From Thermobifida cellulosilytica TB100 (lineage in GTDB: Bacteria > Actinomycetota > Actinomycetes > Streptosporangiales > Streptosporangiaceae), in contig NZ_KQ950180.1 of assembly GCF_001517975.1 (NCBI RefSeq), forward strand, positions 3,038-67,037: a stretch of 64,000 bases of DNA, given 5' to 3'. This document shows, one piece after another, positions 25,450-29,535 of this stretch. Within the stretch, counting starts at the first letter, position 1. Every line of letters starts with the position of its first letter. The notes beneath the pieces were generated by a model. It did no database searches and was not told where the DNA came from. It worked only from the letters and a program-made list of their open reading frames with translations. Both the position numbers and the translations under genes were made by a program.

Positions 25450-25590
25450 TCACGTCCTGCGGCGACTGCTGATCACCGCGGCGGCGATCCCCGCACCGAC
25501 CAGTACCCCGAGCGCTCCCCACAGCCACGACGCGGCCGTCTCGGCCGCGTCACCGAAGAACCAGACCAGGATGTTCAGTGCGGACACCAC
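25450..25590 (-). CDS. 46-residue single-helix membrane peptide
   Basis: A short reading frame from GTG 25590 (or 25587) to TGA with strong third-position G/C. It encodes an N-terminal aromatic/hydrophobic stretch (LNILVWFFGDAAETAASWLW), a Gly/Ala/Val helix, and a basic SSRRRT tail typical of a cytoplasmic end. GAGG lies just before the start. It ends 19 bases before the CopD-CtaG start, so the two are probably translated from one message. It is not a recognised family. It could be a small oxidase-assembly partner, which is inference from position only. Confidence 0.6.
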   Translation of the reverse strand: MVSALNILVWFFGDAAETAASWLWGALGVLVGAGIAAAVISSRRRT

Positions 25591-25910
25591 CTCGGACAAG
25601 CCTAAGCGAACGACTACAAGCCGTCGTACCCCCCTGCCCCGACACTATACGTAGGGGCGCTGCCGCGTTCCGGAGGCGCCTGCGGGCCAGAAACTCGGCC
25701 CAGGTGTGTCGAAAAGCCCGCGCTCTTCCCGAATGCCGGGGACAATGGCGCACAGCGGCACGACCTGCCGGTGTCGGTGCCCGGGCCGGACGTCGGCGCC
25801 GCGGTACGGTCGATCCGCCGGGAACCGACGCCCGACCCGCGTCGCACGGTCCGCGAGGCCCGGCACCGGGACGGGCCCGACTGTCGGCGACAACCACGCA
25901 AGGGGGCCAG
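25591..25910. other. Divergent intergenic region
   Basis: No gene is seen. It separates the CopD-CtaG unit from the amidohydrolase homologue. An AT-richer patch at 25600-25660 with CCCC...GGGG elements (GTACCCCCC at 25624-25632, GTAGGGG at 25651-25657) probably holds the promoter for the leftward genes. The last ten bases carry the AAGGGGG ribosome site of the rightward gene. Confidence 0.5.
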
Positions 25911-27209
25911 GTGCGCCAATTCGATCTCGTCATCCGATCCCGACGCGCGGTCACACCGACGGGTGTGGGTCCGGCCGCGGTCGCCGTCCTCGACGGGCGT
26001 ATCGCCGCGGTCGCCGACCACTCCGCCGACCTGCCCTGCCGGGAGGAGACCGATCTGGGCGAGGTCGCGTTGCTGCCCGGGATGGTGGACGTCGACGTGG
26101 CGGTGCAGGCTCCCGGACAACTGCTGTCCCAGGGGTACGCGCACACCACGCGCGCCGCCGCGGCCGGGGGCGTCACCACCCTCGTCGTGGCCCCGGCGCC
26201 CGCCAGCCCCGCGATCACCTCCACCGACGCGCTCCGCGCCCACCTGCACGCCTCGGCGAGCGACTGCGCCGTCCACGTCGCCTTCCTCGGCGGGGTCACC
26301 CCGCGCAGCGGCCCCGCCGAACTGGCGGACCTGCGCGCCAACGGCGTGGTGGGGTTCGCCTGCTCGCTGTCGGACGGGGGCGGCGCGGACCTGCCCGCCC
26401 TCGACGACATCCACCTGGGCAAGAGCATGGCCGAGGTGGCGACGATGGGCGTGCCGCTGGTGGTGCACGCCGAGGACGCCGGGGAACTGGGCACCCCGGT
26501 GGGGCCGAGCAACAGCGCGCTGCTGGCCGCGCGCCCGCCCCGGGCGGAGCGGCGCGGGCTGGAACGGGTGCTCGCCGCCGCACGGAGCAGCGGCGCCCGG
26601 GTGCACATCGCGCCGTTCGTGGCGGCCGAGTGCGCGGCGATCCTCGCCGCCGCGCGGGCCGTCGGCATCCCGGTGAGCGCCCAGACCAGTCCGCACTACC
26701 TGTGCCTGCCCGCCGAGCACGTGCCCGACAGCGACCCCGCCTACCGCTGCCGCCCGCCGCTGCGCTCCGACGCCAACCGCGGTGCGCTGTGGAACGCCCT
26801 GCTGCGCGGTTCGGGTCCCTCCGGGGAGACCGTCGTCGGCTCGGTGGGCTCGGGGCACCGGCCGGGCACCGGCATCGCGGCGATCCGGTGGAGCCTGCCC
26901 GCGCTGTGGACCGCGGCCCGGCGCCGCGGGTGCGGACTGGCCGAGCTGAGCCTGTGGACCGCGCAGCGCCCCGCGGAGCTGGTGGGGCTGGCCACCAAGG
27001 GCGCCGTCGAGGCGGGCCGCGACGCGGACCTGGTCGCCTTCGACCCCGACACCCACCAGGTGGTCCCCGCCTCCGACACCAGCCCGTACGCGGGGAGACG
27101 CCTGCAAGGGAGGGTGCTGGGCACGTGGGTGTCCGGCACCGCGGTGCCCTCCGAGCCCGACAAGGACCCCTCGCCGCGCGGCGGCCCCCTGCTGGCCGCC
27201 TACCACTAG
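25911..27209 (+). CDS. Cyclic amidohydrolase homologue (allantoinase/dihydroorotase type) with lost metal ligands
   Basis: The 432 residues have the whole amidohydrolase fold of the allantoinase/dihydroorotase group: FDLVIRS start, LLPGMVD, RAAAAGGVTT, VVGFACS, VVHAED, AQTSPHYL, RCRPPLRSDANR, and a GRDADLVAFDP end strand. The metal centre is gone. The usual HxH after the first strand is Asp62-Val-Ala64, the carboxylated Lys is Ala150, the fourth-strand His is Pro235, and the SDH aspartate is missing (GSGHRP). Only His186 remains. GTG 25911 follows AAGGGGG. Hydrolysis of a ring amide is unlikely, so this is probably a pseudoenzyme with a binding or structural role. The frame is intact with normal codon use. 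The next gene is 250 bases downstream. Confidence 0.85.
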   Translation: MRQFDLVIRSRRAVTPTGVGPAAVAVLDGRIAAVADHSADLPCREETDLGEVALLPGMVDVDVAVQAPGQLLSQGYAHTTRAAAAGGVTTLVVAPAPASPAITSTDALRAHLHASASDCAVHVAFLGGVTPRSGPAELADLRANGVVGFACSLSDGGGADLPALDDIHLGKSMAEVATMGVPLVVHAEDAGELGTPVGPSNSALLAARPPRAERRGLERVLAAARSSGARVHIAPFVAAECAAILAAARAVGIPVSAQTSPHYLCLPAEHVPDSDPAYRCRPPLRSDANRGALWNALLRGSGPSGETVVGSVGSGHRPGTGIAAIRWSLPALWTAARRRGCGLAELSLWTAQRPAELVGLATKGAVEAGRDADLVAFDPDTHQVVPASDTSPYAGRRLQGRVLGTWVSGTAVPSEPDKDPSPRGGPLLAAYH

Positions 27210-27459
27210 GCGGCCGGGGCGGCCCGCACGGCGTGGCCTGGGCCCGCTCCACCGCTCCCGGCCGCCGCGCCCCGATCCCGCGTCCGCCGCGTGCGGGGCG
27301 GTGCGCTCCTGCGTGTCCGTCCGCGGCCGGAGCACGGGATCTGCGGCGGCGGGTGCCCCTGACCGGTGGTGTTCGGTCCGGTGGAGCGGATACCGTCGGG
27401 GATGAGAAGAACGGCCGGTTCCGCGGCCGCGACCCAGGTGTTCGGGAGGCGACAGGTCA

Positions 27460-28578
27460 GTGGCACGCACGGAGCCGACGACCCTCACCCGCGTGGCGGC
27501 CGTGGAGATGCGTCTGGTGCGGCTGCCCCGGCCGCGGCAGCGGTCCGGCGGCTGCGGCCGCTTCGTGCGGCACATCCTGGTCCGGGTGCGCGACGACGCG
27601 GGGACCAGCGGCTGGGGGGAGATCCCCGACGCCGACGACTCCCTGTGGGAGGCCCTGGTGACCGCCTACGCCCCGGCGCTGGTGGGGTACCGCTGGCAGC
27701 GGCCCACCGAGGCCGCGACGGCCTGGCGGTCGCTGGCCTACCGGCCCGCCGTGGCGGCCGCGCTGGACACCGCCTGCTGGGACCTGTGGAGCCGCCAGCG
27801 CGGCACCCCGCTGGCGCACGCGCTGGGCGGGGTCCGCACCGCCGTCGCCACCGGGGTCACGCTGGGGCCGCAGCCCTCCGTGGAGTCACTGATCCGCGAG
27901 GTGAACCGGCAGGTCAGCGCGGGGCACAAGCGCATCCGCCTGGCGATCGCCCCCGGCTGGGACGTGGAGGCGGTGCGCGCCGTGCACGAGACCTACCCGT
28001 TCCTCGTCCTCCAGGTGGACGGGGGCGGCCGCTACACCGAGAGCCCTGAGGACCTGGCCGCGCTGCGTGCCCTGGACGACTACGGGCTGCTCGCCGTCGA
28101 GCAGCCCTTCCCCGCCGACGACCTCGCCGCCCACGCCCGGCTCAGCCGCGCCCTGCGCACCCCGGTGGCGCTGGACGACTCCGCCGACTCCCTGGAGCGG
28201 CTGGACGAGGCGATCCGGCTGGGGGCGGGCTCCGCGCTGAACCTGCGGATCGTGCGGATGGGCGGGCTCACCCCGGCGCGGCGCGCCCACGACCGGGCGG
28301 TGGACGCCGGCTGGCAGGTGTGGTGCGGGTCCGACCACGAGTCGGGGCTGGGCCGGGCCGCGGTCGTGGCGCTGGCCTCGCTGCCCGGTGCGGCGCTGCC
28401 GTGCGAGATGCCTCCGGCGGGTGAGCGCTTCGCGCACGACCTGGTGCTTCCGGCGGTGCGGGCGCACGACGGCGTGGCGGCGGTCCCGCTCACCCGTCCT
28501 GGGCTGGGACACGAGGTGGACGAGCGCACCGTCGAGGCGCTGACGGTGCGCTCGGCGTCGCTGGGCCTCCTCGACTGA
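27460..28578 (+). CDS. Enolase-superfamily homologue (OSBS/NAAAR type) lacking both catalytic lysines
   Basis: The 372 residues align along their whole length with N-acylamino-acid racemase/o-succinylbenzoate synthase proteins. Metal ligands are kept: Asp187 (LQVDGGG), Glu214 (VEQPF) and Asp239 (ALDDS). The second-strand KxK motif is Arg160-Leu-Ala162 (RLAIAPGWD), and the sixth-strand Lys is Arg263 (NLRIVRMGG). Without those two lysines the family's proton abstraction cannot occur in the usual way. The GTG start has GGGAGG about 10 bases upstream. It sits between an amidohydrolase homologue and a dioxygenase homologue that have also lost active sites, and its stop is six bases from the end of the latter, convergent. 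Confidence 0.85.
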   Translation: MARTEPTTLTRVAAVEMRLVRLPRPRQRSGGCGRFVRHILVRVRDDAGTSGWGEIPDADDSLWEALVTAYAPALVGYRWQRPTEAATAWRSLAYRPAVAAALDTACWDLWSRQRGTPLAHALGGVRTAVATGVTLGPQPSVESLIREVNRQVSAGHKRIRLAIAPGWDVEAVRAVHETYPFLVLQVDGGGRYTESPEDLAALRALDDYGLLAVEQPFPADDLAAHARLSRALRTPVALDDSADSLERLDEAIRLGAGSALNLRIVRMGGLTPARRAHDRAVDAGWQVWCGSDHESGLGRAAVVALASLPGAALPCEMPPAGERFAHDLVLPAVRAHDGVAAVPLTRPGLGHEVDERTVEALTVRSASLGLLD

Positions 28579-28584
28579 GCGGGG

Positions 28585-29535
28585 TCAGGCCCCCGGACCG
28601 GTGAGGTCCCAGCCGCGCCGGTCGGCGAGGTGGGCGGCGACGGTCACCGGGTCGTACCTGGCGGGGCGCTGCTCGTCCACGCAGGTGGGCAGCGGGGTCA
28701 CGAGGGCGTCGAAGTCCCCGTCGTGGAAGAAGGTGGCCATCCGGCAGCGGTCCCGGCTGTCCGCCCCGGACGGGGGGACGACGCGGTAGACGGGCGAGAC
28801 CCAGCGGTCGTTGGTCCAGCGCGCCAGCAGGTCGCCGACGTTGACCAGGACGGCGTCCCCTTCGGGGACGACGCGGTGCCAGCGGCCGTCGTCGCCCCGG
28901 TACTGCACGCACGGCTCCGGGGTGGCCCGGCGGATGGTGAGGATGCCCGCGTCGGTGCGCTCCGGCGTGGGCGCCGGAGGGTTCTCGATGCGGAGCACGT
29001 CGAGGGAGTGCCCGGTGTAGGTGTGGAAGAACCCCTCGGGCAGGTTCAGGGTGACGGCGAAGATCCGGGTGAGCCGACGGGCCAACTGTCGGACCGCCTC
29101 GAACCACGCCATCATCTGGTGGCGGAACCGCGGCAGGGCCGCCGGCCAGAGGTTCTCGGGGTAGTGCGCGGAGGGCAGGGCCAGGTCGCGGTAGTCGTCG
29201 GCCTGGGTGCCGATGGTGAAGGACTCGGCTGGGCGGAGTCCGGGCGCGACGGGGAACGACCGGTAGCCGCGGTCGATCCAGGCCGCGGGGGCGCCGACGG
29301 CCTGCTTGGCCCGGTCGTTCAGGGCGAAGAAGGTGTCCATCGCCCGTTCCAGTCCGTTCACGACGGGGTCGGGAATCTTGTGCCCGGCGATCTGGAGCAG
29401 TCCGGTCTCCGTGGCCGCGGCGTCCACCTGTGCGGCGATGGAGGCGCGGTGACGTGCCGAGCCCATCTCCCAGCGGGAGATGTTGATCACTGGTACGTGG
29501 AGGGGTCGTCCGGTCGCCTCGACCGAGTGAGTCAT
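28585..29535 (-). CDS. Isopenicillin-N-synthase-family homologue with lost iron ligands
   Basis: The 316 residues follow the 2-oxoglutarate/Fe(II) oxygenase pattern: N-terminal PVINISRWEM, then ESFTIGTQADDYRD, LRIENPPAP, VLVNVGDLLARWTNDRW, ATFFHDGDFDALVTPLPTCV. The iron triad should be HxD...H. Here the HTDxG segment reads Arg193-Thr-Asp195-Ala-Gly, and the distal His in the xxHRV segment is Tyr250 (SPVYRVV). Only the Asp remains, so normal ferrous-iron catalysis is doubtful. The ATG at 29535 follows AGAGG. It points away from the AT-rich region at 29.76-29.98 kb. Its role is unknown. Confidence 0.85.
   Translation of the reverse strand: MTHSVEATGRPLHVPVINISRWEMGSARHRASIAAQVDAAATETGLLQIAGHKIPDPVVNGLERAMDTFFALNDRAKQAVGAPAAWIDRGYRSFPVAPGLRPAESFTIGTQADDYRDLALPSAHYPENLWPAALPRFRHQMMAWFEAVRQLARRLTRIFAVTLNLPEGFFHTYTGHSLDVLRIENPPAPTPERTDAGILTIRRATPEPCVQYRGDDGRWHRVVPEGDAVLVNVGDLLARWTNDRWVSPVYRVVPPSGADSRDRCRMATFFHDGDFDALVTPLPTCVDEQRPARYDPVTVAAHLADRRGWDLTGPGA

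Follow-up and report, generated by a model that had tools for sequence, protein, structure and literature searches.

Organization of the locus

In the 64,000-nucleotide stretch of Thermobifida cellulosilytica TB100 DNA analysed here (the window), a complete minus-strand open reading frame begins with ATG at 29535, ends with a TGA stop at 28585 and is intact throughout. Its 316-residue product matches the Pfam families DIOX_N (6e-14) and 2OG-FeII_Oxy (1e-10), and its scores of 53.1 and 41.9 bits against the curated cut-offs of 27.3 and 23 place it in the isopenicillin-N-synthase (IPNS)-like structural family. The closest solved sequences are the ancestral ethylene-forming enzyme 9ovh, the Pseudomonas aeruginosa IPNS-like protein 6jyv and CC_0200 (3oox), while NCBIfam assigned no family to the protein. 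The features discussed below are as follows.

25578..27209, plus: allantoinase-like pseudoenzyme (alignment; start probably near 25890)
27460..28578, plus: N-acylamino-acid racemase/OSBS-like pseudoenzyme (alignment), hereafter enolase-like
28585..29535, minus: DIOX_N/2OG-FeII_Oxy putative pseudoenzyme, 316 aa (Pfam, alignment, AlphaFold2, Foldseek)
28957..28959, minus: Arg193 codon CGC, replacing the first iron-binding His (codon read directly; homologue alignment)
28951..28953, minus: Asp195 codon GAC, the sole triad residue left (codon read directly; homologue alignment)
28786..28788, minus: Tyr250 codon TAC, replacing the second iron-binding His (codon read directly; homologue alignment)
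28738..28746, minus: Cys264-Arg265-Met266, replacing the 2-oxoglutarate (2OG)-binding Arg-x-Ser (alignment and codons)
28957..28983, minus: shortened loop ahead of HxD, without the GMG motif (alignment; models)

A promoter scan found none, which says little for an organism of this kind. Literature searches found no description of the protein or the locus, their coverage being partial and unable to prove absence. Co-transcription of the 2OG-like gene with the enolase-like gene was rejected, because the two genes converge.

Loss of the iron and 2OG ligands

Homologues were gathered from related genomes and from a genome collection. The alignment comprised 129 sequences, with the window protein and a few duplicate records counted in. 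Locus L092, which has a stop within the chosen range, was left out of a further alignment. At the positions of the family's His-Asp-His triad (HTD...H) the window protein has R193-D195-Y250 (RTD...Y), and hence lacks the HxD/E...H motif. The Arg-x-Ser motif for 2OG binding is lost as well, with C264-R265-M266 in the place of RRS. The preliminary description had read the triad as Arg193/Asp195/Tyr250 and had called the alignment secure. The codons CGC, GAC and TAC and the alignment bear out the first reading; the second holds too, as both the HxD strand and the GDLLARWTNDRW block, which is untouched in the window protein, can be matched across the 129 sequences and with solved 2OG oxygenases. 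Outside the Nocardiopsaceae clade of the window, His is nearly invariant at positions 193 and 250 (115/116 homologues at 193 and 116/116 at 250). Asp195 and Ser266 are each kept in 116/116 of these homologues, and Arg264 in all 90 of them that have at least 35% identity. The sole outside-clade exception at 193 is a Rhodococcus sp. (L129), where Arg replaces the first iron His and the rest of the site is kept. Arg193 also occurs in the orthologues of the congener G001 and of Actinorugispora endophytica. Tyr250 was seen in the window alone, that is, in one genome, and the relatives have His or Phe.

The earlier claim that the surrounding segments are otherwise very typical did not survive. From 75 canonical homologues, 90 invariant positions were defined at a 95% threshold; the window protein keeps 57 of them, and 33 are changed or deleted. 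The losses cluster at residues 184-213 (12/16 versus 21/74 elsewhere, Fisher p = 0.0007), a p value to be read as descriptive because both the threshold and the segment were picked after the alignment was seen. The loop ahead of HxD is about 12 residues below the family consensus, a shortening common to the window protein, the congener G001 and Actinorugispora, and around residue 95 a second loop lacks about 9 residues compared with the Nocardiopsis ansamitocini orthologue. Substrate-loop positions are altered too. Thus the protein is homologous to an enzyme family and essential catalytic residues are absent, as in a pseudoenzyme. It should be pointed out that the loss of RxS, the shortened loops and the metal or catalytic residue losses in both neighbouring genes were missing from the preliminary description.

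Graded loss among positional orthologues

Eight positional orthologues in one Nocardiopsaceae clade show a graded loss of the ligands. Clade members carry the 2OG-like and enolase-like genes as tail-to-tail neighbours, with the allantoinase-like gene and a CopD/CtaG gene farther on; for G331 the gene order was read in part, with the enolase-like gene adjoining the 2OG-like gene on the same contig. The triads and the outer RxS residues are given below.

N. ansamitocini: triad H-D-H; outer RxS residues R, S
Marinactinospora: triad H-D-H; outer RxS residues R, A
Congener G001: triad R-D-H; outer RxS residues H, S
Actinorugispora: triad R-D-H; outer RxS residues H, S
N. trehalosi: triad R-D-H; outer RxS residues W, S
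G331: triad H-E-F; outer RxS residues W, A
G332: triad Y-E-F; outer RxS residues W, A
Window: triad R-D-Y; outer RxS residues C, M

In a tree built without the ligand columns, the eight sequences formed one clade with a support of 100/100. The minimum numbers of changes on this tree were 4 at position 193 (one of them in the unrelated Rhodococcus), 1 at 195, 2 at 250, 4 at 264 (at least one of which may fall among distant outgroup rows) and 3 at 266.

The N. ansamitocini orthologue (L052/L148) resembles the window protein in its syntenic position, in sequence (55% identity) and in predicted fold. Unlike the window protein, it retains H-D-H, RRS and 79/90 invariant positions, and judged by these residues it is presumably active.

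The gene is patchy in the family and is absent from the syntenic site in two of the three congeners. In G002 it is cleanly missing. The G003 site (L146:7911-9017, minus) holds a 368-aa ORF, which on inspection of the sequence was read as an IS605-type TnpB.

Two further genes differ around the locus. An alanine dehydrogenase (ald) gene is present at the position corresponding to 27209-27460 in 8/8 compared relatives, the three congeners included; it is missing from that interval here, and a search of the whole window genome gave no hit. Four relatives (L052:5385-7700, L053:5573-7837, L055:5559-7808 and L149:9403-10641) have a NAGPA-type (phosphodiester glycosidase) gene that is divergent from the 2OG-like gene; neither the window nor the examined stretches of the three congeners and Actinorugispora yielded a match.

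Predicted fold and selection

AlphaFold2 predicted a confident model for the window protein (mean pLDDT 91.2, pTM 0.90), and the corresponding values for the N. ansamitocini orthologue were 87.5 and 0.88. The predicted fold is a double-stranded beta-helix, with a TM-score of about 0.8 to thymine-7-hydroxylase (T7H) and IPNS. The best solved structures found by Foldseek for the window model were T7H, CC_0200 and IPNS. A short strand ahead of HxD (residues 210-213) in the model of the intact orthologue is absent from that of the window protein.

The dN/dS ratios were calculated by the Nei-Gojobori method with bootstrap intervals. The window gene gave 0.42 (0.29-0.59) versus G001 and 0.45 (0.32-0.63) versus Actinorugispora; other clade pairs gave 0.38-0.48, and for every clade pair the interval stayed well short of 1. 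Eleven canonical pairs gave 0.11-0.34, and the neighbouring genes of the window genome and G001 0.10-0.42, all of these values being inflated by GC-rich codon bias. Hence purifying selection on the window gene is relaxed but real, and neutrality is excluded; such selection does not reveal which property is selected, and a recent loss of function would still leave older constraint visible in dN/dS.

Neighbouring pseudoenzymes

The allantoinase-like protein aligns to Escherichia coli allantoinase. Of the six positions that serve as metal ligands in this enzyme family, five are replaced in the window (HxH to DxA, the carboxylated Lys to Ala, His to Pro and Asp to Gly), and the His of HAED alone remains. 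All 30 orthologues, which come from genomes of the same family, have these five residues replaced as well: the first His by Asp or Asn, the second His by Ala, Gly, Val or Thr, the Lys by His, Ala, Arg, Gln or Ser, and the third His by Pro and the Asp by Gly in all 30. Four outgroup proteins keep the full ligand set.

The enolase-like protein aligns to N-acylamino-acid racemases and carries RxA for KxK and Arg for the opposite Lys. None of its 30 orthologues has Lys at any of these three positions: Arg takes the first place of KxK in all of them and the place of the opposite Lys in 23. Of two metal-binding Asp positions, one is conserved in only 20/30 orthologues and the other in 10/30. All catalytic Lys and metal Asp residues are kept by three outgroup proteins. 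The losses in the two neighbouring genes are older and more uniform than those in the 2OG-like gene.

The most interesting part of the locus is this run of three disabled metalloenzymes of unrelated descent, which raises the testable question of why such folds stand side by side. Annotation by family only would call all three proteins active enzymes. A joint non-catalytic ligand-sensing or scaffold module of the three in Nocardiopsaceae is conceivable, yet we regard it as rather doubtful.

A probable folded pseudoenzyme with a presumed non-catalytic role

The ancestor of the window protein would have been an ordinary Fe(II)/2OG oxygenase of the IPNS-like (DIOX_N) family. Genes near the canonical homologues encode a xanthine/uracil permease family protein, NIL and Bmp/PnrA-type ABC transporters, GntR regulators and amidohydrolases. 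Together with the structural likeness to T7H, these neighbours suggest that the ancestral substrate was probably a nucleobase-like heterocycle.

We consider it likely that the window protein is a folded pseudoenzyme. Within one Nocardiopsaceae lineage, iron ligands, 2OG-anchoring residues and the loops around them disappeared stepwise, while the remaining fold stayed. With two of the three iron ligands and the 2OG anchor missing, the window protein is very unlikely to carry out Fe/2OG chemistry. The recurrent change of His to Arg beside a retained Asp suggests that the positive charge of Arg193 stands in for the iron, with a salt bridge to Asp195 probably replacing the metal and holding the empty site together; chance recurrence is also possible, because the change needs a single base (CAC to CGC). 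The remaining role would most likely be the non-catalytic binding of a ligand or a protein partner, dispensable in some species. Binding of a ligand without iron, as put forward in the preliminary description, thus stands as an inference, drawn from the persistence of the fold and of some of its conserved core under purifying selection.

The main rival to a non-catalytic binding role is a decaying gene: catalysis would have gone, selection would be weakening, and what survives would be a functionless open frame that has yet to acquire stops. The gene may be on its way out, since it is missing in one congener and a transposase-like gene occupies the site in another. Its patchy distribution fits such decay, and so do the dN/dS, about twice that of the canonical relatives, and the disappearance of ald and the NAGPA-like gene, adjacent in relatives. 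However, the frame is intact in every clade member, the dN/dS intervals remain well below 1, and the divergence resembles that of neighbouring genes of the same genomes. Moreover, the losses cluster at the active site and are not evenly spread, and the predicted model is well folded. Decay is judged improbable.

That the protein is still an enzyme, with Asp195, Tyr250 and other residues binding a different metal or with a metal-free chemistry such as isomerisation or cyclisation, is far harder to sustain. Asp195 is retained, Tyr can in principle be a metal ligand and the predicted fold is intact, but Tyr250 is confined to the window, the 2OG anchor and the strand ahead of HxD are lost, and the substrate-loop positions are altered. 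The different metal set proposed in the preliminary description likewise seems not to hold, as no new His/Cys/Asp/Glu cluster is evident in the sequence, RxS is lost and the HxD strand is shortened in the model. A sequencing or assembly error is scarcely credible: Tyr250 is one C-to-T change away from His and occurs in one genome only, but error is refuted for Arg193 by its independent presence in the congener and Actinorugispora, and the changes at 264 and 266 and the loop deletions point the same way in an intact frame.

Comparison with known systems

Non-catalytic metalloenzyme folds without metal ligands have been described in bacterial clusters, as a competitor for PesX (PMC13060819) and as a partner for MetCb (PMC11271267). 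Like the folded pseudoenzyme proposed here, both have lost the metal ligands; unlike it, they have different folds and each works beside an active homologue. A PF03171 search of the window genome found no second such protein, so the pattern of an inactive subunit beside an active homologue is not directly transferable, and an active paralogue as a heterodimer partner (MetCb- or CorD-like) is disfavoured. As far as it is cited in PMC13060819, CorB-CorD pairs an Fe/alpha-KG enzyme with an inactive homologue in a heterodimer, whereas no active paralogue is encoded in the window genome.

The IPNS/DIOX_N Fe(II)/2OG oxygenases, such as thymine-7-hydroxylase (5C3P-S), CC_0200 (3OOX) and the P. aeruginosa protein (6JYV), share the fold, the domain order and the core motifs with the window protein. 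They carry HxD...H and RxS, whereas the window protein has RxD...Y, has lost RxS and has two shortened loops. At one genome position the orthologues form a natural series from the intact triad to R-D-H, H-E-F, Y-E-F and R-D-Y, which makes it possible to test in what order iron and 2OG binding were lost and with what effects.
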